Assembly (NCBI RefSeq): GCF_907164915.1
Contig: NC_061862.1
Location: 84,926,846-84,990,845, forward strand
Reading direction: 5' to 3'
DNA: 64,000 nucleotides
From: Impatiens glandulifera
Lineage: Eukaryota > Streptophyta > Magnoliopsida > Ericales > Balsaminaceae
Numbering within the stretch: position 1 is the first letter of the stretch; the number at the start of each line of letters is the position of its first letter. The notes under the pieces are model-generated. The model ran no database searches. It was not told the origin of the DNA and saw only the letters and a program-made list of their open reading frames with translations. A program made the position numbers and the translations under genes. Positions 35,814 to 59,389 of the stretch are shown here, piece by piece.

Positions 35814-35856
<43 letters not shown>

Positions 35857-36648: not shown

Positions 36649-36657
36649 TATAATATG
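36649..36657. repeat. 9-bp TSD of the giant MULE, left copy
   Basis: TATAATATG, identical to 59,381-59,389. The next bases CAAGCCGGAT start the TIR. Confidence 0.92.
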
Positions 36658-37250
36658 CAAGCCGGATATTCTGCTCCCGATTTCATTGTTCCTCGTTTTT
36701 ATTTTTTCCCGATTGCGGACCAATGAAATTACAGGAGCATTATTTTAATAATAAATCAAAGTTGGGTTGAAGGGAGGGAGAGAGTATCCAAAATCCGGTT
36801 TCTATCCGAGTTTATCTCAAATGCCGTTAACAGAATGTCTAGTTAACGTATGGAGTGAAGCTCCCTTCCCCAGGCTCCATTTCAAAATGAATGCAGATAT
36901 AAGTTTAGAGCGAAGCTCATTTTGCTCCAGGCACCATGTAATCACAGTGTATATAGATATGCGATACGGAGAGAAGTATACTTCACGTAGGAGCGATGTA
37001 AAGCGGAATGAAGAGATCCGACTTTCAGGGCGACCACACTTAGCGTTAAGTATTTTATTACCCTAACGCTGATGGAAAACCCCCAACACATCCATGAAAA
37101 GACAGTTTACCTATCATGTAAAAACATAAATTCACCAAAATTATTTATTTTTAAATTAGAAAAAAATTATAAAATTATACTAATCTAGAGTCTGGATCGA
37201 AGCATACTTCCCTTCAATTATTTTATATTCTTATAGAATCGGGCGAAACT
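36658..37250 (+). repeat. Left terminal inverted repeat of the MULE
   Basis: Inverted match to 58,790-59,380 along its whole length, including CCAATGAAATTACAGGAGCA, AAGTTGGGTTGAAGGGAGGG, CGTTAAC, GAATGCAGATATAAGTTTAG and the AAAACCCCCAACACATCC motif. It passes into the ~295-bp subterminal units without a sharp boundary. Several GAAGC/GCTTC motifs occur here. Confidence 0.93.
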
Positions 37251-37544
37251 TCCTTCGTGCAGGAGTCATGGAAGGCGGAACAAAGAGATCTGCCTTTCAG
37301 GGAGAACCATACTCAGCCTTAAGTATTTTCTTACCCTAACGCTCATGTAAAACCCCCAACACATCCATGAAAAGACAGTTTACCTATCATGTAAAAACAT
37401 TTACGAATTTATGTAAATACATAGATTCACCAAAATTATTTATTTTTGAATTAGAAAAAAATTATAAAATTATAATAATCTAGAGACTGGATCGAATCAT
37501 ACTTCGCTTCAATTATTTATTTTTATATAAAATGATTCCGCGAA
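37036..37544 (+). repeat. Subterminal ~295-bp units, left end
   Basis: Nearly two units containing AAAACCCCCAACACATCCAT, GACAGTTTACCTATCATG and GAAGCATACTTC. The same unit forms the array at 43,000-44,440 and, inverted, 58,130-59,090. Confidence 0.9.
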
Positions 37545-37985
37545 ACATCCTTCGCCCAGGAGCCATGTAAAACCGAATAAAGAGACGCTTTTTGAGCGGT
37601 TCTTCTATCGCCCGGGAGCCATGTAAAACCGAATGAAAATACGTTTTTCGAGCGGTGCTTCCATCACCCAGGAGCCATGTAAAATCGAATGAAGAGACGC
37701 TTTTAGGGCGGTGCTTCCATCACCCAGGAGCCATGTAAAACTGAATGAAGAGAGGCTTTTCGAGCGGTACTTGCATCGCCCATGAGCCATATAAAACTAA
37801 ATGAATAGACGCTTTTTGAGCGGTGCTTCCATCGCCCAGAAGCCATGTAAAACCGAATGAAGAGACGCTTTTCGAGCGGTGCTTTCATCGCCCAATGTAA
37901 AACAGAATGAAGAGACGCTTTTCGAGCGAATCTTCAATCGTCCATCCTCCATGTGAAACAGAATGAATAGATGCTTTTTCGTGAA
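37545..37985 (+). repeat. 56-bp minisatellite, eight copies
   Basis: Each unit contains AGCCATGTAAAACCGAATGA, AGAGACGCTTTT and GAGCGGTGCTTCCATCGCCC. Copies start close to 37,565, 37,619, 37,675, 37,731, 37,787, 37,843, 37,893 and 37,950. Open frames on the minus strand here only reflect the repeat. Confidence 0.93.
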
Positions 37986-38043
37986 GCATACTTCGTTTGA
38001 ATAGTTACTTAGCGATGTTTACTTCACTTGTATGAACAACTTT

Positions 38044-38198
38044 AATATATATAAACCCTAATATCATTATAATACTAAACACTTCCGTCCGATTACTCTC
38101 TCTCTCTCTCTTCCAGTGTCCTCCTCCTTTCACGGTGATTCGAATCTGACTCCTCCGTCTACCAGATCAGAAGGTTCGATCTTCACATCTCGACAATG
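38044..38198 (+). promoter_or_regulatory. Candidate promoter and leader of the left-end gene
   Basis: TATATATAAA near 38,046-38,055, a CT-repeat leader at 38,096-38,112 and an ATG at 38,196-38,198 that directly abuts a GTACGT splice-donor-like sequence. The first exon would encode only the start codon, as in ULP copy 1 (ATG followed by GTAAG at 48,742). Confidence 0.45.
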
Positions 38199-39337
38199 GT
38201 ACGTACACTATTTTGGTAATCTTTCCTTTTTCTTTTCGTTCATATTTAAGAAACCCTACTCCGACATTTTCACGTTGAATGAAAATCATTCGTATTTAGG
38301 AAAACGTACTTAGGGTTAGGGTTAGGATTTTTTTATATTATTTCTACGAAACCCTAGTTACTGATGTAATGAGAAATCATTTTTATATTAACAAAGCATA
38401 TTTTTTTTGATATGCAGGCAAGAAACAACGATATCATCCTAAACACTATAGGCAAAGAATGGATTTTTTGCCCAAATGCATTAACTAGTGAAGATACAGT
38501 ATTATTATTGACCTATAACCATTTTGTCCATATTATGTAAGTTTTCATTGAAACTACCATGTTTGTAATAGACAATATTATTGTTTTTACACAGCGGTTG
38601 ATGGTTCAACACGCTGACACTTGTGGTGCGATGGTGTCAATGAGGTGGAGAGACGACGTAACCCTTGTCATAGATCCAACTGATGCAAATGGTGGATGTT
38701 GTCGATCTATCAAATTATTAAAGGCAATAATGAACGAGAAATGGGTCCTCAAAATTGATTGAAAGACTCTATTTGTCTTAAATCAATATTTAATTTCACA
38801 TATAGGAAACTAAATACAAATGTTTTTTGTACAAGGATAAAATCATCTTTCGAATCAAAAACTTACGTTGACGAGGAACCGTACGAGGTTCAACAAGATT
38901 ATCATGGGACCTTGGGCGGTCCATGAGCTGGAAGACTGTGGTATTTGAACAATGTAAGTCACAACAGATTCCTCCTCTATATCTTAATTATTTTCCATGA
39001 TAACTGAAATTGTTTTGTTTGTTTTTCAGCTGCCGAAACTGTTCGACAGTTTCACTTTTATTTTTGCAGGTGAATTCATCCCAACTTATAAACATGATCT
39101 TATAGGGTTTGTAATTGTTGGAGGAGAACCATTAGAGAAATGGAGAATCCCTTTTATGAGCCCGAGGACGACAAAACTATAGTAGTATACGATGAGTCTC
39201 GGCACGATGTTAATGAATTCATTTGGATATTTGAGGCAGTGAATCCTTTGTCAGCATATTTGGATGAATATGGTGTTCCTCACACAAGATTGCTTAAATC
39301 TATTGATGCTTGTGATTTGCATCATTTGTTTACTTAG
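38196..39337 (+). pseudogene. Unrecognised multi-exon MULE cargo gene, disrupted
   Basis: I do not recognise this family. A plausible structure is the ATG at 38,196, an intron ending TATGCAG at 38,417, exon 38,418-38,536 (ARNNDIILNTIGKEWIFCP...), an intron GTAAGT...ACACAG to 38,594, and an exon reading MVQHADTCGAMVSMRWRDD ... KWVLKID, where TGA at 38,760-38,762 probably replaces Trp since KTLFVLNQYLISHI continues in frame. Later coding pieces are GEFIPTYKHDLIGFVIVGG (39,070-39,125) and KTIVVYDESRHDVNEF with a stop TAG at 39,335-39,337. Exons 2 and 3 do not join in frame and a frameshift lies near 39,170. Position just inside the TIR and ahead of the transposase suggests a gene belonging to the element. 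Confidence 0.45.
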
Positions 39338-40059
39338 ACCTGTAAGCTACTGAATATTTGTATTGGAATTTGTTTTATATATTTGTGATTTAGGATTTTG
39401 GTTCTTAGTATTGCAGTTTTAAACAGTATTCATTTTATATATGAACAATGGAATGAGTTTTTAATATGAAAATTACCAAATATTAAATCTTTGAACATGA
39501 AAGAATCATGTAATGTAAAGTATACGCACCTGTGGATTTACAAATCTCAATTAAATGTGAAACAACGCTATCCATGTTTTTCAATTGTCAAAAATTGTGA
39601 AGCAATCTTCGCTATCTGATCAAGGCTTGACATTGATTAAAATTAATTTATAATATTAATTTTATTTATTTTATTATTATAATTCAAAAATTATCAAGTC
39701 ACTTCACCCACCTAACACCATTAAATGCATCCATGCAGCCATGCCGGCTAGCGTTGTACGATTCTCTCTCTCTTCGGTGAAACAGTATATCAACTTTTCT
39801 TCGTCGGAATCGTCCATCCTTAAAGATTAATATCTTCAATAATCCAAATTTATAAATTATAATGTGGGAGTGACAATGGTAAACTATCATATTCTTTCTC
39901 AAGTTTTCTTCATATCGTTTTGTTTCTTTTTTGAAAACTTGACTAGAAATGTTATGTTCTTGTTAATTATCATGAAGGAATCCAAATGAACAAGAATGAT
40001 AATCATGATTTGAGGTATACTGTTGTGTTTGTTTTCTCTAATACTATAAGATGTTTCTA
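39338..40059. other. Spacer between the left-end gene and transposase
   Basis: A possible 3' UTR of the preceding gene followed by AT-rich sequence. It could contain a 5' exon of the transposase gene but none is recognisable. A minus-strand open frame at 39,699-39,902 is not supported. Confidence 0.4.
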
Positions 40060-40355
40060 TTCATATTTAAGTGAAGCGCTCTTCACTTATAGGATATTTC
40101 TATTCATATTGAAGTGAAGCGCTCTTCACTTATATTATATTTCTATTCATATTGAAGTGAAACGCTCTTCACTTATAGGATATCTGTAAATACTAGTGAA
40201 GTGAAGCGCTCTTCACTTATAGGATTTCTGTAAATACTAGTGAAGTGAAGCGCTCTTCACTTATAGGATTTCTGTAAATACTAGTGAAGTGAAGCGCTCT
40301 TCACACATATGATTTCTGTAAATACTAGTGAAGTGAAGAGCTCTTCACTTATATT
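40060..40355 (+). repeat. 44-bp tandem array, seven copies
   Basis: Units of GTGAAGCGCTCTTCACTTAT plus TTTCTGTAAATACTA-like filler, repeating at about 40,076, 40,119, 40,163, 40,206, 40,250, 40,294 and 40,338. Each holds a perfect or near-perfect dyad GTGAAG-CGCT-CTTCAC. It sits directly upstream of the transposase coding region. Confidence 0.94.
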
Positions 40356-40421
40356 TCATTCATTTTACAAGCATCTTTATATTTTGTTGAGATGAATGTT
40401 TATTTTCTCCACGTTCTATAA

Positions 40422-42782
40422 TTGACCAGCGAATCTGCGAGTTGTCGGTGTCAATTGAATTTCGATGAAAATGGCGAACCTTTGGAGGACATCGTAGCTA
40501 ACTTGATTCCACATTTAGGTCGGGAATTTGAGAGGGAAGAATATGCCTATAAATTCTATTTAGCATACGCTAAAATAATAGGATTTGGTATAAGGCGCAG
40601 TTCAAAACATGATGACAAAGATGGTTTTTTACTGTATAGAGTTTTTTGTTGTAGTGCACAGGGTGAAAGGGGTAAAGACAAACGGGATGTTTATGTGAAA
40701 CGTAGCCGTTCTTTAACGAGGTTCGATTGTGAAGAGAAATTGATGATAAAAAGGGAAGCAAATGGAAAGTTTGAAGTGGTAACTTTTATTAGTGAGCATT
40801 GTCATCCTCTTGCAAGTCCAAAGAAAACTCACCTATATATATGCCATAGGAATATTTCTGAAGCTGCAGACTTACACATTGAGATGACATATAATGTGAG
40901 AATTACTCTAAATGCATCTCATGCTCTAATGGCCAAAAAAATCGGTAGTAGGGATAATCTTGGTTTTATTCCTGAAGATTACAAAAATTACTTGCGATCA
41001 AAAAGATCCAGAGATTGTAATTTTGGGATACAAGGGTGTATTAGAGTATTTGCAGAAAAAGCAATCAAACGATCCAGTTTTTTTTAATGCTCCTCAACTT
41101 GATGTGGACGATTTGATAACGAATATTTTTTGGTGTGATTCCAACATGCGATGTGATTATTCATACTTCGGAGACGTTATTAGTTTCAACACGACCTACA
41201 AGAAGAATAAGGAAGGTCGTCCAGTTGCGCTTTTTGTAGGTGTGAATCATCACAAACAATCTATTATTTTTGTTGCAACTCTATTATACGATAAAATTGA
41301 TATTACTTTTGAATGGTTGTTTGAGACTTTCACCACAGCTATGCATGGGAAAAAACCGAAAACAATTCTTACATATCAAGACGCGGCCATGGCCAAGGCC
41401 TTAGCGTCTACATGGCCCGAAACAAATCATCGGCTCTATATTTGACACATATTTCAAAATGTAGCCGTACATCTAAGATCTGTGTTTCATAATTTCAGAG
41501 AATTTTCGAAGGATTTTTCTTCATGTATATATGATTTTGATGAAGAGGTAGAGTTTCTTAAAGCCTAGAATCAAATGTTGACAAACTATGGGCTTGAAAA
41601 CACCGACTAGTTGAAGCGTATGTTTAGCATTAGGCGAAAATGGGAATTAGTGTATGGACGACATACGTTTTGTGCTGATATGACGACAACAAAGAGAAGT
41701 GAGAGCATGAACAGTGTGTTGAAAAAGTATTTCTCCTACAAACACAAGTTCTTAGAATTTTTCAAACACTTCGAAAGACTAATTGACGAAAGAAGATATA
41801 ATGTGTTGAAGGCTGATTTCAAATCAATTACCAGCCAACCAAGTCTGAACTATCCAGTTTTGATCTTAAAGGATGCATACAATGTTTACATTTCAGAGAT
41901 ATTTAAGTGGTTTGAACAACAATGGTTTATGTCGCATGATTGTGGTGTAGAAATGTTAGAGGATGTCGACACAAAAAAAATATAAAGTAACCCCCACACT
42001 AGGAGATACCCTCATACAATTACAGTACACAAGAATGATGATAATATCGAGTGTAGCTATTGTAAATTTGAATTTGGAGGTATTTTGTGTGATCACATTC
42101 TAAAGATTTTTACGACGATTGACGTGTTGAAGATTCCTCCTGCGTTGATATTAAAGAGGTAGACAAGAACCGCTAAAGATGGATATTTTGGAACGGATCC
42201 ACTAGTGGACAACAGTAATGTTGATCCGAGTGAGCTTCAAAACATAAGATTCAGAGATTATTGTGGCTTGTCCACGCATTTATTTACAAAGTCAGCTGAA
42301 AGAGATGACACATATAGGAATGTGAAAGAAATTATTCTTAGCCAGTGTAAGTATGTGGATAAAAAATTACTGGAGGATACAAATATGCAAACTCCACCAG
42401 TTGTATCAGGTTCTGCTGAGGTTGCCCCCGCTCGAGAGAAAGGAATGAAAACTAAGATGACAACGAAGTCTGGTAAGAGAAGGAAAGGTGGACTAGAGAA
42501 GAATATAAGAGAAAGAAAAACAACAAGAAAAACAATGGTATCACCAATAAATCCGGTATGTAAATGATCGCTTAACTACTTTACTAATAATTGGGTTATT
42601 ACTCTTCATTTATTAACAACTTTTAAATTGATATACCATTTCAGCTATCAAATACAATGTCAACAATGACAACTACTCAATTCTCAACTCCTCAACAATG
42701 GGACGAAACTTTCAGCATGGACGCCGATACTCCTTTTACTGTTCTTTTGTCATCTCAACTCTCGAATTCCAGTTTCATGTGA
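40422..42782 (+). pseudogene. FAR1-type MULE transposase, inactivated
   Basis: N-terminal FAR1/WRKY-GCM1 zinc-finger domain (about residues 30-130): FEREEYAYKFYLAYAKIIGF, Cys in FCCSAQG and TRFDCEE, His pair in EHCHPL. After a frameshift near 41,012 comes the MULE catalytic domain: YSYFGDVISFNTTYKKN, where the Asp of the usual FDTTY is Asn; FEWLFETF; ILTYQDAAM, where the usual TDQD has Tyr. Then SESMNSVLKKYF and a SWIM-like CSYCKFEFGGILCDH (near 42,055-42,100). Stops at 41,443, 41,566, 41,608 and 42,160 fall where relatives carry Trp; another is at 41,983. A last intron (GTATGT at 42,556 to TTTCAG at 42,645) joins a final exon ending at TGA 42,780-42,782. The start is uncertain: the reading frame may enter from an upstream exon at a CAG acceptor near 40,430. 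Confidence 0.9.
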
Positions 42783-42989
42783 AAGTTGAAATATATTTGT
42801 TTGTAAGTTTGAGTTGAAACCATTATATGCATGGGGGTTGATGTAAAACAATGAACAAATTAATGATTTAATAAAAACCTATTGATCAGGTCATGTGAAC
42901 CCTTAATTTTTACGTTTGCCTCTATAAAACCATGAACTCCGTTAAGAAAGTACATATTACATATGTTATTCCTTGAAGTTCATGGAAAA

Positions 42990-44440
42990 CCTCCAAGACA
43001 TCCATGTAAGATTATTTGTAAAGCGGGCGAAGCATACTTCACTTCAATTACTTTATATTCTTATAGAATCGGGCGAAACTTTCTTCGCGTAGAATCCATG
43101 TAAAACGGAATGAAGAGATCCGCCTATCAGGACGAACCACACTTAGCTTAAGTATTTTCTTACCCTTACGCTGATGAAAAACCCCCAACACAACCATGAA
43201 AAGACTGTTTACCTAACATGTAAAAACATTTACTCATATATGGAAACACAAAAATTCACCAAAATTATTTATTTTAAAATTAGAAAAAAATTAAAAAATT
43301 ATACTAAGCAAAGGACGAGATCGAAGCATACTTTGCTTCAATTAATTTATATTCTTATAGAATCATGTGAAACTTCCTTCGACCAGAAGGCATAATGAAG
43401 AGATCCTCCTATCAGGGCGAACCACACTTAGCCTTAAGTATTTTCTTACCCTGACGCTGATGGAAAACCCCCAACACAACCATGAAAAGACAGTTTACCT
43501 AACATATAAAAATATTTACTCATGTATGGAAACACAAAAAATTCACCAAAGTTATTTATTTTTAAATTAGAAAAAAAAATTAAAAAATTATACCAAGCAA
43601 AGGACGAGATCGAAGCATACTTCGCTTCAATTACTTTATATTCTTATAGAATAATGTGAAACTTCCTTCGATCAGAAGACATGGAAGGCAAATGAAGAGA
43701 CCCGCCTATCAGGGCGAACCACACTTAGCCTTAAGTATTTTCTTACCCTGACGCTGATGGAAAACCCCCAACACAACCATGAAAAGACAGTTTACCTAAC
43801 ATGTAAAAACATTTATTAATGTATGGAAACACAAAAATTCACCAAAATTATTTATTTTCAAATTAGAAAAAAAAATTAAAAAATTATACTAAGCAAAGTA
43901 CGAGATCGAAGCATACTTTGCTTCAATTACTTTATATTCTTATAGAATCATGCGAAACTTCCTTCGATCAGAAGACATGGAAGGCAAATGAAGAGATCCT
44001 CCTATCAGGGCGAACTACACTTAGCCTTAAGTATTTTCTGACCCTGACGCTGATGGAAAACCCCTAACACAACCATGAAAAGACAGTTTACCTAACATGT
44101 AAAAACATTTACTCGTGTATGGAAACACAAAAATTCACAAAAATTATTTATTTTTAAATTAGAAAAAAATTATAAAATTATAGTAAGCAAAAGACGGGAT
44201 CGAAGCATACTTTGTTTCAATTGCTTTATATTCTTATAGAATCGTGCGAAACTTCCTTCGCTCAGAAGACATGCAAGGAGGAATTAAGTGATTCGTCTAT
44301 CAGGGCGAACCACACTTAGGGTTAAGTATTTTCTTACCCTGACGCTGATGGAAAACCCCAAACACAACAATGAAAAGACAATTTACCTAACATGTACAAA
44401 CATTTACTCATGTATGGAAACACATAAATTCACCAAAATT
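42990..44440 (+). repeat. ~293-bp tandem array, five units
   Basis: The GAAGCATACTT motif recurs at about 43,030, 43,321, 43,612, 43,906 and 44,200. Each unit also has CAGGGCGAACCACACTTAG, CTGATGGAAAACCCC and GACAGTTTACCTAACATG. It is the same unit as in the terminal regions, in the left-end orientation, but there is no TIR tip here. Open frames at 43,174 and 43,367 are repeat artefacts. Confidence 0.93.
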
Positions 44441-44499
44441 ATTTAATCATTAATTTATGTTTTAATAAAAGAAGTAAAATATAATAAATAAATTTAAAA

Positions 44500-44900
44500 A
44501 CAGAATATGTGAAGCTATCATCGTTCATTTTTTGAAAAGCTCATCCGTGCGAAGCCAGCATCATTTTTTTAAAAGCTCATCCGTGCGAAACTAGCATCGT
44601 TTATTTTTTAAAAGCTCAATCGTGCGAAACTGAAACTAGCTTCGTTTATGAAATTATAAAATCAACTTTGCGAAGTTAACTTCATTAAATTTTTAATTTC
44701 CGTGAAGTTGAAAGCACTTCATTTCTGTGAAGGATTATTTGGAGCGAAGATTCCCTCTCCTAAACAATATTTTTCATGAAAAACCTCCCGAACATCTGTG
44801 AAGGATTATTTGGAGAAAAGATTCCCTCTCTTGAACAATGTTTTTCATGAAAAACATCCAGAACATCCATGAAAACACATTTAAACTTCATTGTTCAAAC
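44500..44900 (+). repeat. GAAGC..ATCG repeats, inverted copy of 57,830-58,080
   Basis: About four units of GTGCGAAACTAGCATCG plus TTTATTTTTTAAAAGCTCAT, then GTGAAGTTGAAAGCACTTCA and TTTCTGTGAAGGATTATTT. The same order appears inverted at 57,830-58,080, beside the right-end array. Confidence 0.9.
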
Positions 44901-45037
44901 ATTCGTTCTAATAAGTGAAATAACTTAAGTAACAAAACTCACATTTATACTTAAATAATCTATACACATTTTCATTCATATACAATGTCAACTTAAATTA
45001 TTTTAAAATTTTAATTTCACAATCTGTATACATTTTC

Positions 45038-48000
45038 AAATTGATCCACTGATCCATTTCTGGCAGTCCTCGTAGACGGTTCCCCTTATTTTGTTTAGAT
45101 CCGACCCAATGATACGCCACATGTACATCATCCTCAAGGAATTTATGGGTGAGTGCCGTGTGTTTTTATCGCAGAAGCCAGGTCTCCAACCCTTGATTTT
45201 ACCTTCATATGTCTCCATGTGTCTCATGTAGTAAACCCCGCAATCAGTGAAATTATTGCTATCCTGTCATGATAATTCCAAACATTTCATTGCAAACTTG
45301 GAGAACTTTGCACCAAGAACGGGGTCTACTTCGTCCATAAATCATGTAAGTTAATAATCCTGGTACATAATGAACAACATTATGTAATGTACAATAACCA
45401 AAAAATTTTGGCGACTAAACATGATGAAAAGCGAAGTTCAGTGTATTACAAAAAGGAGGACATTCTTATATCTTATCTCGTAGGGCGATTCTATCACCTC
45501 CCTGTTGTCAATTATTTGAATTTCCTTTTCTATGAAGTTATAGAAAACCAAATAAAAATGGCCCTGATCAATGATTGGGAAAAACATCTGCAAATATAAT
45601 TAAAGCATATAAGATTTCATAGAGGTGTACATGCTATTAAATGATATGACAACGACAGATTTACTTACAAGGTCCGCTTTCAAGTAGTCTACTTTTTTCA
45701 TCTTGAAATTCTTACATTCATTATAGAACCTCGAATCGAATGCTTATTTAAAATCATTCCCATTTACATGAAAAGCCTGTTTACAACATAGTCTGTATTA
45801 TAACACTAATAACTTCATTGATAAACAATAGTGTTAGTACAACTTACGGTGATCACAGTTGTGAAGAACATATTATTGTGTGGGGGTTTTACTTTTCTAC
45901 TACAAATGTCGTTCAACATATACGACAAGGATAATCATACTGTCTACCTAGTGATCAATAGCCAAGGATAACATGTCCGCGCGCGTCAGGTGGATAGTTA
46001 GTGTATCAGTAAAAAATAACATTGCACTGTAGAAGACAATAAAACATGTTTGAGAATGAGGTAGAAAGTACATATGAAATAAGAATGTGGAGGAAACATT
46101 ACGTTTGGTCTAGTCCCTTATCATATACGAAACCCACAATTATCTTCTGCTTATTTGATATATTCTTGACCTTCCTAAATATGTTATCGAGATAGGGGGT
46201 TTTCAATACGGGGGGAAATTGTAATCCATGAAGCCAGTCGCACATTCGCTTATCATTATTTGGTAGAAGAGGCAATGTAGGTTCAAGTGGCGGTGGTAGA
46301 ATAGAGATGCATTCTTCTTCATTTTTTACTATCGACAAGAGAGGAGATGCATGGTTGGTTTCGGTGTTGATAATCTCGCTTAACCAATCGGTTTTCAAAT
46401 TTCGGGGACATTTTCCTGCCAAATTGAAGGAATTTGATGGACCAGGATCTATTTGTGGAAAAATTAAGGTTGGAGAAATTGGGATGCTGTTGGCTTCGAC
46501 TATGGTGGTAATGATGATGTTGTTGGCTTCGACTGTGGTGGTAATGATGTTGTTGCTGGCTTCGGCTGTGGTGGTAATGATGTTGTTGTTGTTATCGACT
46601 GTGGGAATGTTGATGTTGTTGTTAGCATTGGTTGTGGGAGTGTTGATGTCATTGTTTACTTCGACTATAGGAGTGTTGATGTTGTTGTTGGCATCAACTG
46701 TGGGAGTGTTGATGCCGTTGTTTGCTTCGGCTGTAGGAGGATGTTCTTGTTCTCTTGGTTGGCAATGTTTTGTCTCATCTAAGCTCCTTGCCCAGTCTTC
46801 CCTCAGGATTGGATGGTAGCTGACGACCGTGGAAAGTGGCTCAAAAGTAGATTGTACAATTTCTATTGCGTTAACACAGTGTACCTCATTTAGAATTTTA
46901 GATGCTTGTGCCAAAACTTCTGCAGCTGCAACAACCTTACTCAAACATGAGACAAGAGTGGATGTGTAGTCACTCGTAGGATGCTCAGTCCGAAGCTCCA
47001 CAGTCCGAGGCTTCTCAATTTTGTCATTTAGAGGCTACTCATTATGAGTCTTAACATTTTGGTCTAGTGGAGACTTCTCAGTATGAGGCAACTCAGTCTT
47101 TGGATTGTCAACCCCAGCTTCTTCTGGAGGAGGCTGCACATTTTGGTCATTCGGAATGGCTATGCGAGCAATGACCCTACCACGTCCAATTCCCCCATGG
47201 GAAGCCTCATAACCAACCCTGTCGTACATCTTCTTGTCGTTCAAGCATCCCCAAATAGGGAAATTTCTTAAGATCTTACTGTTTACCTTGTACTCAACAA
47301 CCCGGTCCAAGTAGCAGAACTGATACATTAGCATTAAAAAATATATATTACGTTAAAGTAACTGCAAAATTATGAAGCTAGAACCTACTACATATAATAT
47401 TCTACACTCACCAGAAGAAACGTTAGTGGTCCATGGAAATATGATGTCTTGTTTTCTTCCCACTTAAAAACACTTTCAACATGACCGTCTAAAGTAAACT
47501 TGCACCTATTGTAATCTTTAATTTTAGATACATCTTGCAGGGATTTCAATATTTTGAAAAAATATAAAAAAACACAGAGGATAAAATCATTTTAGATGAC
47601 AGCCAGAGTAAGAAAATACATAATTATTGTTAGGTAGTTTGGGTATACCTACACTATGGATTTTGGGAAGTCCACAAAAAAACTGGATACAACAAACACA
47701 ACGAAGTCAATCTTGAAGTTACTGTCTCCGCTGTATTTTGTAGAATTTTCTTCGGCATTTTATTGGTGAAATGACCTCCACTATTCTTGAATCCCCATCT
47801 CCTTCTCTAGTCCCTGAGATTTTCCTTGTACTCCTGGTCGTCCGAGCAAATTCCAACACACTCTACGATTTCTAATTCCCCTCTAGAGATGTTCAATACA
47901 CATTGAACATCCTCTTCATCTATCTGAATCTCCTCTCCACTATGTAGGACGATGCTCCTCCTTATGGGATTGAAGAGACTCACAATGCATCGTGAGAATT

Positions 48001-48742: not shown

Positions 48743-48940
48743 TTTTGCAACAACAGAAGATCGAATTTGGAAGAGAAAAACCTTCAACGGCGAACGAACG
48801 AAGACAACGGAGGTAGGCGAACGAGCAGAGAAGAGTAACCCTCCTTACTTAGAGTGAATGGATTTACGTTCGGCCAATTATGTTTTTAAAATAATGCGTT
48901 TGTGGGTTTACATGAACTTTAGATTGAAAGAAGCAAGCTT
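48743..48940 (-). promoter_or_regulatory. 5' leader region of ULP copy 1
   Basis: A GC-richer stretch upstream of the ATG (GAACGAACGAAGACAACGG), probably the 5' UTR. No TATA box was identified with confidence. Confidence 0.35.
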
Positions 48941-50170
48941 CGCTCAGGAATTATTATATTTGTAAAATAAAAGAACTTCGAATAGGGGAAGAAAGCTTCA
49001 CTCATAAATTATTATATTTGTAAAATAAAAGAAGCTCGAATAGGGGAAGAAAGCTTCATTTGTTACCGCTCGATTAAGTGAAGCAAGCTTCCCTCAGGAA
49101 TTATTTTATATACTTCAATATTGCGGATTGACAATTGATTAGATGGTAGTAGTTGGAATTGACATAAAGTACACATTTCACTATTTCCCACACTTTTTAT
49201 TTATAATATAAAAATGTATTTCTCTTTAATCAATGTATATCCGTACAGATACTGTAGTACACATGTCTGCTGAAGGGACAACACAACTTTTGGAAATCTC
49301 CAAATTTTGGCGCTTCACAAGCTAGCTATCAATGATGACATCGATGAAATTTAGGTTATTTATAAGTTCATATTGCTTCAATGAAATTATATATATATAA
49401 TTAATCCATTAATGCAGATTGACCGTTGATGGGATGGTAGCAGTTAAATAATAGATGAGTCAAAAGGACTGCAGACTTGTCCGCCGATGTGATAATTCAA
49501 CACGAGAGTGAACGTAATATTAATATGTTTCTTTTCTATTTTATAAAATAGGGGCTTCAAATCTTTCCAACCCAAATGAAAATTTTCAGCATGAGTATTG
49601 TGAATGTGTTGCTTAAGATATTTTGTTCAGATCTACTCTGTGGGAGATTCTCTGTGGTGGAAAACTTGTTCAATGAAGATGAAGAGTGTCTAGTTGTGGT
49701 AGAAAACATCTTCAGTTACTACGACATCTTCCTAGTTGAAGTTGAAACTACCGACCAAATGAAGATCATTCATGTCCACCGCTGGTGGGAAGAGCCAGCT
49801 TTAGGAGATTCCTTGGGATGGAAAACATCTCAAGAGATATCTCTACAAGTGGAAAACATCTGAAGAGATATCTCACCAGGTGTATTTCTGAAACCTTGTA
49901 ATACAGATGACTATTGTTATAATGTAGAACTGTGTTTATGAAACATTGTAATGCAGATGACTATTGTTACAATGTAGAATTGTTTATCAAACGTAGTTGT
50001 AATGGAAAGGAGTTCATCCATTCCGATAATAATAATAACAATAATTGTCATATATATTTTAATTCGGATTTAATTATGTCTATTATAAAATAATGAATAA
50101 AAAGGAAGGAATATATATATTTTAAATTGACAATTGAAGCAATATTTGTTCCCTAAAAACATTGTAAAAT
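48941..50170. other. Spacer with GAAGCAAGCTTCGCT repeats and an unrecognised ORF
   Basis: Three copies of a ~50-bp unit with GAAGCAAGCTTC at 48,945-49,110. The motif GATTGACMRTTGATKRGATG occurs near 49,128 and 49,416. A 95-codon plus-strand frame (49,576-49,863) contains two similar GGAAAACATCT segments (repeat-like) and matches no domain I know, so it is not called as a gene. Confidence 0.5.
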
Positions 50171-51790
50171 GTATTTAACAAACGATGAAAGCTTCGTTCT
50201 ATATAAGACTTGTCAACGGTAACTATGAAGAGAAGCAAGCTTAGTTTTTTGTTTTTTCATGAATGCTAAGGGGTTTTTCATGAATTCATTTATGGGTTTT
50301 ACATGAATGCATCAGGGATCTTTTTTCAATATATTGTACACAAAAACACAAATGTTTAATATAAATTTATTACTATTATAATAATTTAATAATAAAAAAA
50401 TATATAATTATTTCATTTATGAGAATTATGTCACATCAAAAGAGTCATATGTACTGATTACTCATCCTTCGAGGTTAAAATAATCATCACAAAAAGTGAA
50501 GAAGGCTTTGTTTACTTATTGTCAACTCTCAGTAACAAGCGATGAAAGCTTCGTTCTATATAAGACTTGTCAACAGTAACTATGAAGCGAAGAAAGCTTA
50601 GTTCTTTGTTTTTTCATGAATGCATAAGGGGTTTTTCATTAATTCATTTATGGGTTTTATATTATTGCATCAGAGATTTTTTTCAATATATTGTACGCAA
50701 AAACACAAATGTTTAATATAAATTTATTACTATTATAATAATTTAATAATAATAAAAAAATGAAAATATAATTATTTCATTTATGAGGATTATGTCACTT
50801 CAACATAGTCATACGTACTGATTACTCGTCCTTTGAGGTTAAAATAGTCATCACAAAAAGTGAAGCAAGCTTCGTTTACTTATTGTCAACTCTCAGTAAC
50901 AGGCGATGAAAGCTTCGTTCTATATAAGACTTGTCAGCAGTAACTATGAAGTGAATCAAGCTTAGTTCTTTGTATTTTCATGAATGCATAAGGGGTTTTT
51001 CATGAATTAATTTATGGGTTTTACATGAATGCTTCATAGATTTTTTTTCAATATATTGTACACAAAAACACAAATGTTTAATTTAAATTTATTACTATTA
51101 TAATAATTTAATAATAATAAAAAAATGAAAATATAATTATTTCATTTATGAGGATTATGTCACTTTATCAGAGTCATATGTACTGATTACTCGTCCTCCA
51201 AGATTAAAATAATCATCACAAAAGTGAAACAAGCTTCGTTTTCTTATTTTCAAGTCTCAGTAACAAGTGAGGAAAACTTCGTTCTATATAAGACTTGTCA
51301 ACGGTAACTATGAAGCGAAGCAAGCTTAGTTCTTTGTTTTTTCATGAATGCATAAGGGATTTTTCATTAATTCATTTATGGGTTTTACATGAATGCATCA
51401 GGGATTTTTTTGTCAATATATTGTACACAAAACACAAATGTTTAATATAAATTTATTACTATTATAATAATTTAATAATAATAATAAAATGAAAATATAA
51501 TTATTTCATTTATGAGGATTGAAGGTTGATGGGATTATGTCACTTCAATATAGTCATACGTACTAATTACTCGTCCTCCGAGGTTAAAATAATCATCACG
51601 AAAAGTGAAGCAAGCTTCGTTTGCTTATTGTCAACTCTCAGTAACAAGCGAAGCATGCTCCCTGTAATAAATTGATAATAAAGCGATGAAATCTTAGTTC
51701 TATATAAGACTTGTCAACGGTAACTATGAAGCGAAGCAAGCTTAGTTCTTTGTTTTTTCATGAATGTATAAGGGGTCTTTCATGAATTGT
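50170..51790 (+). repeat. ~360-bp tandem array, five units
   Basis: GCGATGAAAGCTTCGTTCTA followed by TATAAGACTTGTCAACGG recurs at about 50,183, 50,541, 50,905, 51,270 and 51,685. Each unit also contains GAAGCAAGCTTMGTT, TTTTTCATGAATGCATAAGG and a TTATTACTATTATAATAA stretch. The last spacing is about 50 bp longer. Confidence 0.94.
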
Positions 51791-51984
51791 ATAATTGTTT
51801 TTACATTATAGTCTGAAAAGAAAATGATAATGATTCAAAGTGTAACTTGACAACAATTTATTTGCATTCATTTGGGTACACAAAAATACAAAAAGATTTC
51901 ATAATCGTTATAGAAAATTATACAGATGAAGCAACCAAACAACAGTTTAAAAGCTACAACTTGTACATAATAAATGAAGCCCTA

Positions 51985-53131
51985 ATCTGTACCAGTGCTT
52001 GACTCGTCATTCAGTCCTGTCATTGATACGACTTCTTGTTCGACGATGAGTGGAATGTATAACTGACATTCTTCGTTCACAGCATTGATCCATCGATTGG
52101 GGAATGAAATTGTTAGAGAAAGCTCCATTATTGATGTGTACTCGAGGTAAAGATCAAGAGAAATCAGCATCAAATCTGCCGGAGGATTGAGTGCATTCGA
52201 AGGTAGGGGATTCCGTAGGCCAAATTATTGATATATGATAGTTGTGCAGTAGGAGGTAGATCCCTCTAGGCCCAACACAATGATGAATGGAGAACCCCTC
52301 ATCTCGTACATCATTTGACTAAAGAGATACCACAGAACAATGAACTAAATTGGGTGAATATTAGAAATATAATTCTCAAGCACGATTCTAGCGATCCTTT
52401 GCAACTATATATTTGCAAAGGAAGGGTAAGGAATTGAAGGACGGAGAAACCAATGCAATTTGTCTAACAACCAGAGGTAAAGAACCAAAGGTGATCCACG
52501 GCGGGAATATTTATTTGGGTCTGAAATAAATTCGTTGAGATCAAGGAGTGTCTCAGCGAGTACAAGGCCACCCAAACATGGGGTATTTCCCATCAGTGCA
52601 GGAACTACCTCCAGGAGCCTATCCGAAGGTCGTAGTCCTTCACCCGGACACAAAAAAATGAGCAAGAACCACAAGCATGATTAGTTTGCTTTGTGTGTGG
52701 CTGATGGTCTTTTCAACTCCATGGACACGCCAAATGTAATCGTCTATTTGTGTCATATTGAGAAATCCATGTTGGAGGGTAATTAATATAGCATCAAACA
52801 TTGTACAACCATAGAAGTTATGGCAAGTTTCGAATGCAAAATGAGGTTCAAGATTGATAGACAAAACAATGAGTGTAAGACTCCCACACCTAAGGATTGA
52901 AGCGAAGTCCTCAATCGTCAGGCATATGTGTATGTCACTAATGACAAAAGAACAAGTGTCCGTATTCTATCTACTTTGCATGTAGGCCATCAGACTGTCG
53001 TGAACATTTATTCTGATGAGAGGTATAATATCATCTACATGATAAACACCAAAAGGGATAGGGTCATCGTTGATCAGACTTAAGTATCGCTCCAACTATT
53101 GTTGTGATAAAACCGACATCTCTAGCTCCAT
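51985..53131 (-). pseudogene. Aminotransferase-like plant mobile domain (PMD) gene, disrupted
   Basis: Minus strand from ATG at 53,131. The translation has DIHICLTIEDFASILRCG (near 52,930), matching the start of the plant mobile domain (the LTLEDV..LLG-like motif), then FETCHNFYGC, and after a frameshift near 52,640-52,670 GLRPSDRLLEVVPALMGN, CLGGLVLAETLLDL and GSPLVLYLWLLDKLHWF, the hydrophobic WLL motif typical of PMD proteins. Stops occur at codon 12 (TAG) and after MAYMQSR. The tail near 52,000-52,170 may be the C-terminus. PMD genes are known both as host silencing factors and as cargo of plant transposons; here it lies inside the MULE. Confidence 0.65.
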
Positions 53132-53379
53132 CTCTTCCTCCTAAGTATCTCACTAAATGAATAAATGAGGTAGCAACAGCCGATAAAGACTTTGGAGGGA
53201 GAGAGTCAAAACAGAAAGAGAGAGAGAGAGACTAAATAGATGATGACACTAGCTCTCACTACAGGAATAGGCGAAATGAATCAAATTATAGCGCCCTGTA
53301 CTTTAGTTATAATTTATTTTTCATTCATGTATTAACATTTTTACATGAAAGGACCAATATGAACTTAAAAACATAACTT

Positions 53380-54145
53380 GTGAAGCTATCTTCGTTTATG
53401 ATATTATAAACTCAACCTTGTGAAGCTAGATTCGTTTATGAAATTGTAAACAGAAATTATGAAGCTAGATTCGTTTATGATATTATAAACTCAAACTTGT
53501 GAAGCTAGATTCGTTTATGAAATTGAAAACAGAACTTGTGAAGGTTGCTTCATTTATGAATTTAAGAACAGAATTTGTGAAGCTTTCTTCGTTTATGAAT
53601 TTATAAACAGAACTTGTGAATCTTTCTTCGTTTATGAATTTATAATCACGGGACCTTTCGAAGCTAGCTTCGTTTATGAATTTATAAACAAAACTTGTGT
53701 AGCTAGCTTCATTTATGATATTATAAACTCAAAAGCTATCTTCGTTTATAAAAATGAAAACAGAACTTGTGATGGTTGCTTCGTTTATGAATTTAAGAAT
53801 AGAATTTGTGAAGCTTTCTTCGTTTATGAATTTATAAACAGAACTTGTGAGTCTTTCTTTGTTTATGAATTTATAATCACGGGACTTTTCGAAGCTAGCT
53901 TCATTTATGAATTTATAAATAGAACTCGTGTAGCTAGCTTCGTTTATGATATTATATATTAAAAGGCTAGCTTCGTTTATAAAATTGAAAACAGAACTTG
54001 TGATGGGTGCTTCGTTTAAGAATTTAAGAACAGAATTTGTGAAGCTTGTTTCGTTTATGAATTTAATAATAGAAATTGTGAAGCTTTCTTCGTTTATGAA
54101 TTTATAATCACGGAACCTTTTGAAGCTAGCTTCGTTAATTTTTCA
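53380..54145 (+). repeat. ~40-bp array with higher-order repeat
   Basis: About 19 units of GAAGCTAGCTTCGTTTATGA plus ATTTATAAACAGAACTTGT. A second-order period of roughly 225 bp is visible: the series GGTTGCTTC, GAAGCTTTCTTCG, TTTATAATCACGGGAC, GTGTAGCTAGCTTC recurs from about 53,540, 53,770 and 54,000. No coding frame is kept. Confidence 0.93.
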
Positions 54146-54414
54146 ATACCTTTGTCCGGTTATTATGATTAAAAATATGGGTACAAGAAGAGCAAAATGT
54201 GAAATATAATCAATTAAAGTTTTCTATTATAAACATAAATAAATTATAAGTGCATAATGTGAAAGTACACTAATTAAAATTTATTTACATACGACTCGAA
54301 AGATTTCTTAATCTAATTGTCTTCTTTATGTTTAACTTATTGACTTTGTGGTCTGACATAAGAATTCGATATAAATATTTCATCCTCGGTGTACTGATAG
54401 CTTCTTCAACATTC

Positions 54415-57400
54415 AAAACAACAAAAGAAAGTATAAGAAAATATATAAAAAATTGTCATAGACTAACATGCATTTAACACTTACATTGTCGCTATTGAAG
54501 TCAATATCCCACTTCTTCGTCTCTCCTCTATATGTTTCCATATGTCTAAATAAATATATACCACAGTCGACTTTGTTTGTACTATATTCCCACTTCAACT
54601 TTGGAGCCATTTTTTTCATCTTATGAATTTTTTCAGCTAATCCGAATAGGCCTATACTTACCAAGAAAGCCCCAAAATTCATAATGTGCCGACTCAAATT
54701 GGTATACTTCTCCAGAAGTTTAACACTCTTAGGAAGTCCGGCGTTGTCTAATACTTGGATTTTTGAAAGAGACATATTGACACATACAAGGAAGTAATGC
54801 TTTTCATGGAGGACCTGTAGGAATATCTATAAAAAGAATACAAACATGAATTATTTGATATCATTGCATATATATAAGTATAAACAAAATTCGTTAATTG
54901 GAATGGTTCATAACATACTAGGTCAGCGTTTGTTATGTGTCTTCTTTGAGGAAACAAACAAACGCTTCATAATCAAATTGCATACTAACCTAGAAATTAA
55001 TTCTAAAGTATCAAATTCATGAACATTGAGTAATACATAGCACAAAACCAAGTGAAGAGAACTTACATATGATATTATGGAAAAACAAATTATTCGTTTT
55101 TCATGCCTTGCAAACCTATTAAACTTGAATTGCAAATAAATGGCCCAAGCGTCCACCACTTCGCTCGCAACTTCTGCTTCATCTTTCATTGTTTGCAATT
55201 GTGCATGGGTTATATTACCTGGAAACCCTTCGTACAGTACCTCCCTGCAAAAATAGATTCATTTAGAACATAACTACTTTAATATTTAAAATTTATAAAA
55301 GCATGATTCACTTACGTTTCATCAAGGTCTTCATAAAACACATAATCGGCCCATCTTTGTTCCTTGTTCGTTATTTTATTCAACTTCTGCGCAATGACTT
55401 GCATGTAGGGGGATTGAAGGTACACCAGAATTTTTGAGATCTTCCTCTTCGGATGGTCTCTAATGTTGACGCGTCCCCCTGATCTTCATCTTCAAAAGAT
55501 TCATCAGCAGCTTCGGAATCTTCGGTTTCCTAACCCTCATTTTTCCGTTGAACAACGGGAGGATCGGGAGATTCTTCATTGTGCTCATCTGCTGTATCCT
55601 CACGGGGTGAACTATTCATTTTCAACTTGTCACTCTTTATAGTGTCCCCAAGTACCTCCTTTGGATCAGGAGGATCTTCATTGTGCTCTTCTGATGCATC
55701 CTCAGGGGGGACTATTTATTGTCAACTCCACACTCTCTAAAGTGTCCCCAAGTCCCTCCTTTAGATCAGGAGGATCTTCATTGTGCTCTTTTACTACATC
55801 CTCACGAGGGGACTATTCGTTTTCAACCCCCGCACTCTCTAAAGTGTCCCCAAGTCCCTCCTTTGGATCAGGAGGATCTTCATTGTGATCATATGCTGCA
55901 TCCTCACGGGGGGACTATTCATTTTCAACACGACACTCTTTAAAGTGTCTCCAAGTACCTCCTTTGGATCAGGAGGATCTTCCCTACTTACACAAACCTC
56001 ACCATTATTCACTTTCAAGTGTTTCAGGAACATTTTAGACTTTGTTAGTTTCAGGTAACCGGCCTTAAAAATAGTCTTGGGATCGATGTTGCGTTTCTCG
56101 AACTCGTCTGATAGGCAATTCAACTGTTCTGCCATATCTTTAAAAGTTTGTATGACTTTGGATGTTAACATCTGTAGATTTTAAAAAGCATAATTGATTA
56201 GTCTAAAAAACAAGAAAGTATAGGAAAATGTGAGTCAATTTCTTATTTCAATATACCTTGTCATTGTCTTCCGGTAATTCCAATAAATTAACTAGAATTT
56301 CATGTTCTTCATCTGTTAGGCGTGCCCTTGCCCTGCCCAGCCTAAAACCACCTGCGCGAGCTTCTAACGTGGTAATCTCTAACAATGTGGTGTCATCCCA
56401 GCAAGAGATATTGGTACAGACCTTTCATAAGAATGACATACACCATCGACAAAAAACATCGTCTATGTAGCAAATCTGAACCAAAGGAATGGGAAACATT
56501 TAAGTGAATATTAAATATCTATAAATCATATACAAGAAAGAAATTATTTACCAATAATAAGGTTAAAGGTCCATCAAAATATGGTATTTTGTCTTGTTTA
56601 TCTTTTTTTTGCCAACTTGCCACACTTTCAACCAATCTTTGTAGTGTGAATGAGCACCAGTTCAGATTCTTTATGTTATCAACATCCATTAAGGATTTGA
56701 GAATTTTCCACCAGATTTAATATAATACATGGGTAAGTATTTACAAATACAAATAGATATATAATAGATATGAAAAAAATGATTACATGGCTCGTGAATT
56801 TTGAACTGGACATAAAAAACTCGAGACAACAAAGACTACAAAGTCCATTTTGAAATTATTATCTGCACTTGTGTTACTTAATATTTTGGGTATCATAGAA
56901 AGTGTTTCAGGAGATGAAGTTGATTCTTCCCCGATCAAATCTGACCTTCCAGTCCCTCATGAAATTAAAATACTTAGGGTCATTATTCTTGTCCGCCCCA
57001 GCGACCTCAACTATGTTCATTGGCCCTCTCATGAGGTTTAACACAGAATGGATAAGGTCTTCATTGATAAGGATCTCATCACCGTTGGCCAATATGAGAG
57101 AGGTCTTCTCGAGCTCGAAACATCTGACTACGAGTTTTGAAAAATGACTAGGGCAATTAGAGAAACCCAATGTAAGAAGAGAACTGAACCCGATTTCCTT
57201 CACAGCTTCCTTCTATTCTACGCTCAATTTAGGAATCATGTGAAAAAGGCCATGAGGGGATGATCTTGTTAGAAATGCTACTTTCATTTTTTTTTTGATG
57301 ATTTTGGGGGGAGGTGGTGAATCTTCATCGACGGGTGTAGCTGTAGCAATATCATTAGCTTCCACAGCAACATTAAAAATTGATTCATTATTCGATGACT

Positions 57401-57753
57401 CCGTCTTCGTATTTCTCTTCCTCTTCCTTTCATATGTATTCAAGTAAAGCCTCCAACGAATTATTTTCAGTGAGATAACAAAAATCAGTATTTTACAAAA
57501 GATATGGAATAAACGGGTGTAATATTAATCAAAAATATATAAACACAATATGATTAACCTACCACTCTAGTTTATTGATGAGATTGTCGTTGGATACAGG
57601 ATTGGGGGCGGTTTCGTTTATGTTGTTACAAACCGCCATAACGATCTCTCGGGAGTCGGAAGTAACCACTTGCATGTTGTTGGCTTCGTTTTGTGACATT
57701 TTCACAAAAAATGATTGTGGAATAGAATAAACTTCTAGGGTTTCAGAGTTCAT
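54415..57753 (-). pseudogene. ULP1-like (peptidase C48) gene, copy 2, disrupted
   Basis: Minus strand. ATG at 57,753 opens MNSETLEVYSIPQSFF; an exon with the NLS ERKRKRNTK follows, then KEIGFSSLLTLGFSNCPSHF (57,200), FKMDFVVFVVSSFLCP (56,830) and DNIKNLNWCSFTLQRLVES (56,680). The middle carries a ~100-bp tandem repeat (55,640-55,980) encoding PPDPKEVLGDTL-like units. The C48 core has His in KHYFLVCVN (54,796), Asp in QVLDN (54,747) and Cys in DCGIYLFRHMETYRG (54,564). A stop TAG at 57,215-57,213 lies at the same place as in copy 1. It is the right-end gene, reading inward from the TIR. Confidence 0.87.
55640..55985 (-). repeat. ~100-bp tandem repeat in ULP copy 2
   Basis: AGTGTCCCCAAGTCCCTCC with GATCAGGAGGATCTTC recurs at about 55,641, 55,741, 55,843 and 55,944. 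Units are not multiples of three throughout, so they shift the frame. Confidence 0.9.
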
Positions 57754-57829
57754 ACAAAGATTATCGCTGGGAGAAAGAGAGAGAGAATGTGAATAGTTTC
57801 TTATGAAAGTTAAGAGTGGGATTTGTAGC

Positions 57830-58080
57830 GGGACAAATATAAACAATCCTTCACAGAAATGAAGCGATTTCAACTTCACAGAAATTAAAATTTTAATAAA
57901 GTTAGCTTCGCAAGGTTGATTTTATAATTTCATAAAACAAGCTAGTTTCGCAGGTTGAGCTTTAAAAAAAATTAACGATGCTAGTTTCGCACGATTGAGC
58001 TTTTAAAAAAATAAACAATGCTGGCTTCGCATGGATAAGCTTTTAAAAAAATAAACGATGCTAGCTTCACAGATTCTGTT
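57830..58080 (-). repeat. Right-side copy of the GAAGC..ATCG repeats
   Basis: Inverted copy of 44,500-44,760 with matching order of motifs (TTCACAGAAATGAAGC, TTGCGAAGCTAAC inverted, GATGCTAGTTTCGCACG). It joins ULP copy 2's 5' side to the right-end array. Confidence 0.9.
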
Positions 58081-58129
58081 TTTAAATTTATTTATTATAT
58101 TTTACATCTTTTATTAAAACATACAATAA

Positions 58130-59090
58130 TGATTAAATATTTTATTTTCTAATTTAAAAATAAATAATTTTGGTGAATTTATGTGTTTACATGCATGAGT
58201 AAATGTGTTTACATGTTAGGTAAACTGTCTTTTCATGGATGTGTTGGGGGGTTTTCTATCAGCGTTAAGGTAAGAAAATACTTATGGCTAAGTGTGTTTC
58301 GCCCTAAAAGGCGGATCTCTTCATTCCGTTATACATGGATCCTGAGCGAAGGAAGTTTCACACGATTCTATTAAAATATAAAGTAATTGAAGCGAAGTAT
58401 GCTTCGATCCTGTCATTTGTTTAGTATAATTTTTTGTTTTTTTCTAATTTAAAAATAAATAGTTTTGGTGAATTTATGTGTTTACAGTAAATGTTTTTAC
58501 ATAGGAATATAAAGTAATTGAAGCGATGTATGCTTCGATCCCGTCATTTGCTTAGTATAATTTTTTAATTTTTTTCAAATTTAAAAATAAATAATTTTAG
58601 TGAATTTATGTGTTTACATGCATGAGTAAATGTTTTTACATGTTAGGTAAACTGTCTTTTCATGGATGTGCTAGGGTTTTCCATCAGCGTTAGGGTAAGA
58701 AAATACTTAAGACTAAGTGTGGTTCTCCCTGAAAGGCAGATCTCTTCATTTCGCCTTACATGTCTTCTAAGAGAAGGATGTTTTGCACGATTCTATAAGA
58801 ATATAAAGTAATTGAAGCGAAGTATGCTTCAATCCCGTCCTTTGCTTAGTATAATTTTTTTAATTTTTTCTAATTTAAAAATAAATAATTTTGGTGAATT
58901 TATGTGGTTACATGCATGAGTAAATGTTTTTACATGTTAGGTAAACTGTCTTTTCATAGATGTGTTGGGGGTTTTCCATCAGCGTCAGGGTAAAAAAATA
59001 CTTAAGGCTATGTGTGGTTCGCCCTGAAAGGCGGATCTCTTCATTTCGCATTACATCGCTCCTGCGCGAAGTATACTTCTCTCTGTATCT
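58130..59090 (-). repeat. Subterminal ~295-bp units, right end
   Basis: Inverted units like those at 37,036-37,544 and 42,990-44,440, with GAAGCGAAGTATGCTTCG near 58,390, 58,520, 58,815 and a variant near 59,070. One unit is shortened (58,430-58,520). Confidence 0.9.
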
Positions 59091-59380
59091 CATATCTATA
59101 TATACTGTGATTACATGGCGCCTGGAGTGAAATGAGCTTCGCTCTAAACTTATATCTGCATTCTTTTTGAATTGGAGCCTGGGGGAAGGGAGCTTCACTC
59201 TATACGTTAACAAGACATTCCGTTAACGACGTTTGAGGTAAACCCGGATAGAAATTCGGGTTCTGGATACTCTCTCCCTCCCTTCAACCCAACTTTGATT
59301 TATTATTAAAATAATGCTCCTACAACTTCATTGGTCCACAACAGGGGAACACTGAAATCGGGAGCAGAAGATCCGGCTTG
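58790..59380 (-). repeat. Right terminal inverted repeat of the MULE
   Basis: Inverted match to 36,658-37,250, ending ATCCGGCTTG at 59,380. The TIRs differ by scattered substitutions and small indels, so the insertion is not very recent. Confidence 0.93.
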
Positions 59381-59389
59381 TATAATATG
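59381..59389. repeat. 9-bp TSD of the giant MULE, right copy
   Basis: TATAATATG, identical to the left copy. The paralogous empty site holds the sequence once (62,222-62,230, minus strand). Confidence 0.92.

Follow-up and report, generated by a model that had tools for sequence, protein, structure and literature searches.

A palindromic motif recurs in several tandem arrays and in the terminal inverted repeats of a five-gene Mutator-like element of Impatiens glandulifera

We report the analysis of a large Mutator-like element (MULE) of Impatiens glandulifera and of a short palindromic motif, GAAG-N4-CTTC, that is restricted to this element within the window, by which we mean the stretch of 64,000 nucleotides from contig NC_061862.1 (positions 84,926,846 to 84,990,845) to whose numbering the coordinates below refer. 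The element spans 36658-59380 (22,723 bp) and carries five genes, all directed inward: gene D and a FAR1-type transposase gene on the plus strand, followed on the minus strand by a ULP gene (ULP-L), a gene first labelled 'PMD' for plant mobile domain and a second ULP gene (ULP-R). This is the arrangement of strands given in the original prediction for the locus. The motif, a 12-bp dyad, is common to several tandem arrays and to both ends of the element, and we consider below whether it could be the docking site of a regulator that the element itself encodes.

The element is bounded by a perfectly matching 9-bp target-site duplication (TSD), TATAATATG, at 36649..36657 on the left and 59381..59389 on the right, and its terminal inverted repeats (TIRs) have tips that read CAAGCCGGAT. 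Alignment of 36598-37532 with 59443-58495 gives 84% identity over 967 columns and runs some 60 bp beyond the tips; over the outermost ~310 bp, 286 of 312 positions are identical (92%). The outer part of the left TIR (36658..37585, plus strand), an inverted match to 58495-59380 at 84%, contains about two units of a ~296-bp TIR array, and the right TIR (57841..59380, minus strand) measures about 1.5 kb including its array. The left TIR is split by a block of ~5.5 kb that holds gene D and the transposase and resumes at 43028..44740 (plus strand) as array C (296-bp unit), of which 44097-44740 matches 58502-57841 in inverted orientation (83%). The 9-bp TSD and a MULE transposase domain, both characteristic of the Mutator superfamily, are present. 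A paralogous site without the element (61823..62747, minus strand), lying outside it in the other arm of an inverted repeat, is strong evidence that the element inserted as one piece: the joined flanks with one TSD align across the junction to the reverse complement of 61751-62700, apart from some small gaps next to it (identity 89%, E 3.7e-58, in the left arm; 92%, E 1.3e-19, in the right arm, 59411-59474). The original prediction of one large MULE delimited by perfect TSDs and matching TIR tips, with alignment of the TIRs as a check, is borne out by the TSDs, the alignment and the empty site. The inverted repeat is the older structure; the arm that holds the element comprises 35765-36648 and 59390-59633, and the other (61823-63044) is element-free.

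Gene D (38100..39337, plus strand, its splicing in the window copy provisional), pieces of which occur in other copies of the element, belongs to no recognised family, as had been predicted: no Pfam family scored above cut-off with its pieces or composites from the window, and a protein search returned none of 16 candidates at E<=10. The transposase gene (40422..42567, plus strand) matches MULE (PF10551, 9e-19) and FAR1 (PF03101, 2.9e-19), and this combination of a FAR1 DNA-binding domain with a MULE domain, together with a SWIM-like CxC...CxH seen by eye, upholds its description as FAR1-type; it is presumably related to the transposase of Jittery. The gene is broken: its frame shifts near 41040 and changes again near 41980, and there are nonsense codons at 41443, 41566, 41608 and 42160 (frame changes in this gene, the ULP genes and the 'PMD' gene were placed by eye).

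The two ULP genes each consist of an N-terminal domain, a tandem peptide repeat and a Cys protease motif, and both are broken. ULP-L (45039..48742, minus strand), whose first exon is read as an untranslated region plus ATG (48742-48740) with a predicted splice, has nonsense codons at 48070-48068 and 47809-47807 and a frameshift near 47730, and contains a 33-bp repeat in 7.6 copies within its coding sequence (46488..46739, minus strand). ULP-R (54288..57699, minus strand) has a nonsense codon at 57215-57213 and frame changes near 56920 and within its repeat, which is of 102 bp in 4.2 copies (55561..55982, minus strand). The two are paralogues, identical at 80 of 164 residues over three exons and saturated at synonymous sites. 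Their assignment to ULP1 was confirmed by Pfam solely in a stop-free relative from a sister family (Peptidase_C48, 6.8e-8, 33 bits against a cut-off of 20.7), and the window's own ULP exons gave no C48 match; thus the predicted paralogy stands, with the ULP1 label carried by the relative. The 'PMD' gene (51985..53231, minus strand), with a nonsense codon at 52969-52967 and a frameshift near 52643, lost its label: neither its pieces nor a stop-free relative of 393 aa matched the Pfam PMD family (PF10536) at E<=10, and the best match of the relative is DUF7745 (E 6.5e-4, 19.3 bits, below the cut-off of 26), so that we refer to the gene as weakly DUF7745-like. Pfam returned nothing above cut-off for the ULP and 'PMD' pieces and composites of the window, and protein searches at E<=10 returned 3 of 7792 candidates for the ULP-L composite and none of 1302 for the 'PMD' composite. 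In sequence searches of the PDB there was no relevant match to a ULP-R piece or to protein P0002, and the sister ULP gave weak matches to ULP2/SENP7 (E 0.034-0.33). An AlphaFold model of the ULP-R exon, with a predicted local distance difference test score of 45, was not used; an Rfam search gave 0 matches.

The Impatiens glandulifera protein P0001, annotated as 'B3 domain-containing protein REM20-like', ends in the ULP N-terminal sequence of the family (aligned to 48676-47993) and probably represents a chimeric gene model, or else a transposon that became exonised. The idea that ULP-L is a captured host REM (B3) gene was set aside, as P0001 looks like a chimeric model. As for captured host fragments, the trait of Pack-MULEs, a single short REM-like match was found, at 48676-48596, to this same probably chimeric protein.

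At least four of the five genes of the window copy (the transposase, ULP-L, ULP-R and 'PMD') are thus broken by nonsense codons and frameshifts, which amends the original prediction, in which the genes were described without decay. Most of the stops stand at codons that read W or Q in related proteins (for the transposase, in what we take to be its relatives), a pattern that suggests G:C to A:T decay. The ULP-L stop at 48070-48068 and the ULP-R stop at 57215-57213 fall at the same aligned codon, which is Q in P0001 and in a sister copy; this stop may have been inherited jointly or may have arisen in parallel. Between copies, median ratios of non-synonymous to synonymous substitution lay at 0.30-0.79 for pieces of D, TP_FAR1, TP_C, ULP and PMD, at 1.03 for TP_MULE and at 1.52 for PMD2, and gave no clean signal.

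The dyad GAAG-N4-CTTC, in its extended form YGAAG-N4-CTTCR, is found in array units of 39, 44, 58, 296 and 364 bp, as single sites beside array A and 5' of the transposase, and in the TIRs. There are 32 dyads in the element, against 0.27 expected from a first-order shuffle, and 0 in 41 kb of flank. Other spacings of the half-sites occur near background, except for a spacing of 9 (17 sites), which in the TIR units looks like the dyad with an overlapping third half-site. Over all 4-mer half-sites and spacings of 0-12, GAAG-N4-CTTC has the highest count and occurs in 10 of the 16 position groups; in eight shuffled elements the maxima for half-sites with at least two G/C were 3-5 sites. A position weight matrix (PWM) gives 80 sites scoring >=8 in the element and 0 in the flank, a partly circular count, the matrix having been built from those sites. 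At the 78 sites scoring >=9 the two border bases on the left are CG or TG in 71 cases, and those on the right are CG or CA in 61 (positions that the matrix includes), as decay of CpG would give. With one unit taken per array family, GAAGC occurs 16 times where 2.1 are expected, at a z of 9.2 that exceeds the largest of the null (6.5). Once the dyads are excluded, 33 of 36 region pairs are without similarity at E<=0.01, and the arrays are thus largely, though not provably, unrelated, since this test missed one pair known to be homologous.

The sites are disposed along the whole element, and dyads lie 5' of each gene where the gene starts are as predicted. Array A (56-bp unit) is followed by dyads at 37983 and 38014 (together 37548..38025) 5' of gene D; 5' of the FAR1 exon, 39599..40353 holds one dyad, at 39599, and array B, with a unit of 44 bp and 7 sites at PWM>=9; array E (58-bp unit) and the next site (48930..49091, four dyads) lie 5' of ULP-L; array F (364-bp unit, 50176..51806) has three dyad-like positions per unit, some of them degenerate; and array D (39-bp unit, 53358..54139) lies between the 3' end of ULP-R and the 5' end of 'PMD', with 17 of its 20 copies carrying a site at PWM>=9. 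The outermost TIR dyads, at 36857 and 59185, are ~185-200 bp from the tips. The dense tandem arrays of the original prediction are therefore present, and what it had missed is that several of them have one dyad motif in common. Tandem arrays in the flank carry no dyad. A large degenerate array of AACACGTTTTT type at 6873-8156, which switches to its reverse complement near 7683, has 0 GAAG-N4-CTTC dyads.

The genome holds other copies of the element. A search with the left TIR, in which the best 40 of 531 candidates were scored, gave at least 40 matches, the two ends in the window included, and six further copies with both TIR ends were fetched, of 29.7, 25.3, 21.0, 15.4, 8.8 and 1.1 kb. The TSDs are perfect in the 25.3-, 15.4- and 1.1-kb copies and match at 8/9 positions in the 8.8-kb copy (C8) and, by eye, in the 29.7-kb copy (C5); in the 21.0-kb copy (C6) the left tip is lost. 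The 29.7- and 25.3-kb copies contain pieces of all five genes in the order seen in the window; in the former, the ULP-R N-terminal exon is split into two parts ~5 kb from each other, apparently by a later insertion. In the 21-kb copy there are D, ULP-R and two DUF7745-like stretches, with no transposase match found; the 15.4-kb copy has D and the transposase, the 8.8-kb copy D, the transposase and the ULP-R N-terminal exon, and the 1.1-kb copy none of the five genes. Pieces of gene D were found in eight of the nine other copies for which the left part was fetched, all but the 1.1-kb copy; no gene of the family is found more consistently, and D is present even where the transposase was not matched. 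Because two further TIR-bounded copies keep the five-gene order, the cargo is ancestral, and the window holds a degenerate member of a TIR Mutator-like family with a long form of ~21-30 kb. The original prediction had proposed a search for copies with its TIR tips and gene order, and these two copies answer to it; neither TIRs drawn from two elements nor cargo inserted later, the two outcomes that it had set against itself, was found.

The dyads are equally a property of the family. Among 28 other TIR loci (30 less the window's two; several are paired ends of one copy) the dyads number 97 inside the element (50.2 kb) and 1 outside (39.9 kb), with at least one inside at 27 of the 28. In six other copies 112 of 113 dyads stand in contexts homologous to those of the window, and they are therefore inherited features of the family rather than 113 independent events; 15 belong to the 21-kb copy without a transposase match. 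Compared with the window, where the sites were chosen, the copies differ at 3.9% of half-site and 8.3% of flanking positions.

Furthermore, the ULP-R N-terminal exon and the DUF7745-like exon each have at least 150 matches in the genome (the best 150 of 1613 and of 557 candidates, respectively). Among the weaker matches, at about 61-66% and 71-75% identity, long frames free of stops are frequent and their lengths recur. The two genes are found repeatedly on one strand at a distance of ~4.4 kb, as at contig positions C1:21155551 and 21160090, C4:3771947 and 3776325, and C9:2217739 and 2213395. These features point to one or more sister families that were probably amplified recently. At the one sister place that was read (L061) there are a C48 domain, the stop-free DUF7745-like frame of 393 aa, a TIR match and, in the ULP gene, a 60-bp coding repeat. 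The array between its ULP and DUF7745-like genes is distantly homologous to array D (65%) and contains six of the seven dyads of the place, all GAAG-ATAT-CTTC; the half-sites are kept, and the spacer and much of the unit have changed.

Elsewhere in the window, a Copia-like polyprotein remnant was read from open reading frames only at 83-3033 (plus strand), and open reading frames resembling those of a non-LTR (long terminal repeat) retrotransposon were read by eye at 28139-33845 (minus strand).

How might such a motif act? The tandem peptide repeats of the ULP proteins, together with an element-specific array motif that has sites 5' of each gene, lead us to propose that a dimeric regulator encoded by the element docks at the dyads. 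Tandem duplication would have raised the number of sites, and binding of the regulator would open and activate the genes and ends of the element, as VANC does for VANDAL elements; the window copy would later have lost its genes to stop codons that resemble G:C to A:T decay. With less certainty, the binder may be the ULP protein, whose variable middle has VANC-like tandem peptide repeats. We regard the proposal as a whole, in which an element-encoded regulator docks on the dyads and lifts silencing, as evenly balanced between right and wrong. A wider form of it, possible and offered tentatively, would see here a second, independent system of sequence-specific anti-silencing or self-activation outside the VANDAL lineage, in which a ULP-type protein of a FAR1-type TIR-MULE, helped by the products of gene D and the DUF7745-like gene, would bind a palindromic operator that extends across the element, and in which the sister family has changed spacer and unit and kept the half-sites.

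Several observations weigh against the proposal. GAAGC occurs in seven of nine array families, and some k-mer reached that maximum in 11 of 300 shuffles; the pair test missed the homologous pair of array D and D-left, so its sensitivity is low; and array A, like a 50-bp array at 49881-49992, has no site at PWM>=9. Strong purifying selection on the half-sites within the family was sought and a weak signal found: between copies, half-sites differ at 7.6% of positions (110/1448), spacers at 9.1% (66/724) and flanks at 9.4% (1070/11417), so that conservation of the half-sites is at best weak, and their slight advantage may reflect the decayed state of the copies. Over all 20 copies of array D the majority fractions are 0.91 for half-sites, 0.75 for spacers and 0.86 for the rest, and the retention of half-sites in the sister family was read at a single place. 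The VANC21 motif is not palindromic, whereas the motif here is a dyad, and DUF1985 was matched neither by the window composites (E<=1) nor by P0001-P0003 or the sister frames (E<=10). Finally, the dyads in the TIRs could serve the transposase.

This last point leads to an explanation which we consider unlikely, namely that the FAR1-type transposase binds the dyads and that the spread of the arrays aids synapsis or autoregulation, for which the TNPA binding sites of En/Spm offer a parallel. It would account for dyads in both TIRs and inside 27 of 28 other TIR loci and for the block of seven sites directly 5' of the FAR1 exon, but the outermost sites stand ~185-200 bp from the tips, most lie deep in the element and also 5' of other genes, and copy C6 retains its 15 dyads without a transposase match, though this shows past inheritance only. 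That the dyads are promoter elements recruiting a host transcription factor is distinctly unlikely: their near absence from the host flanks (41 kb and 39.9 kb) tells against it, for all that sites lie 5' of the predicted gene starts, and we recognise in the dyad no plant factor site known to us. More doubtful still is a by-product without bound protein, in which short palindromes would give rise to minisatellites by favouring slippage or foldback. The weak conservation of half-sites over flanks within the family would suit it, yet it does not lead one to expect one main spacing with a variable spacer, equal half-sites in unrelated units and their retention at the sister place, and the flank has tandem arrays without the dyad. 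A composite origin, from the TIRs of two elements or from separately inserted cargo, is scarcely credible even though the left TIR is interrupted by the ~5.5-kb block in which gene D and the transposase lie. Copies C5 (29.7 kb) and C1 (25.3 kb) have the same order, with dyad contexts homologous to array C likewise 3' of the transposase; self-comparison shows no inverted-repeat pair around the block; its borders have no convincing TSD, since the common 11-bp word belongs to the array homology; and the paralogous empty site has no element. The nested-insertion reading is contradicted by the other copies and was rejected.

The proposed regulator is best judged beside known systems. VANC is described as binding a short motif that has accumulated in tandem repeats in the non-coding parts of VANDAL elements, and as removing silencing (PMC5735166, PMC10398659); tandem arrays of peptide motifs are frequent in VANC proteins (PMC5735166). 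Some VANDALs have a VANC gene with a ULP1 domain, whose role a 2026 review calls unknown (PMC13317346). The Impatiens element resembles these in being a MULE, in encoding a protein with variable tandem peptide repeats (the 33-bp and 102-bp coding repeats here, the 60-bp repeat in the sister) and in the piling up of a family-specific short motif in non-coding tandem arrays, the motif being different from that of VANC21. It differs in its long TIRs, those of VANDALs being degenerate, and in its FAR1-type transposase. With the KAONASHI ULP-carrying MULEs (KI-MULEs) it shares a ULP Cys-protease gene opposite to the transposase (PMC2528002), whereas KI-MULEs are non-TIR elements and the TIRs here are long. 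ULP genes in MULEs, in TIR-MULEs and in Jittery-like MULEs are already published, the latter two in grapevine, where the longest MULE of Table 4 is 17.7 kb (PMC2528002). By comparison with the ULP-carrying MULEs of melon, rice and grapevine, the present family differs in having a pair of ULP paralogues as well as gene D and a DUF7745-like gene; Jittery-like or FAR1-type MULEs have the same FAR1 and MULE domains, and here these belong to elements of 23-30 kb that have dyad arrays and five genes. Captured PMD genes in MULEs, speculated to serve anti-silencing of transposable elements, are fused to the transposase in the published examples (PMC5418596), whereas the gene here has no Pfam PMD match. 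The long TIRs and FAR1-type transposase, unlike those of Arabidopsis KI-MULEs, make a distinct lineage plausible; the suggestion of such a lineage in the original prediction stands on these features, without the PMD part of the combination that it named. No description of the Impatiens family or its dyad was found in the titles and abstract openings surveyed, which took in 20 of 657 and 10 of 1,403 papers from the two longest lists, a survey outside which subscription papers and preprints fell.

An element-specific dyad that can be counted, relatives in the same genome whose ULP and DUF7745-like frames are long and open, and a sister with another spacer make the role of ULP1 directly testable. 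The question posed is whether the ULP protein, or another protein of the cargo, recognises the dyad and lifts silencing, and the answer would show whether sequence-specific anti-silencing arose more than once.

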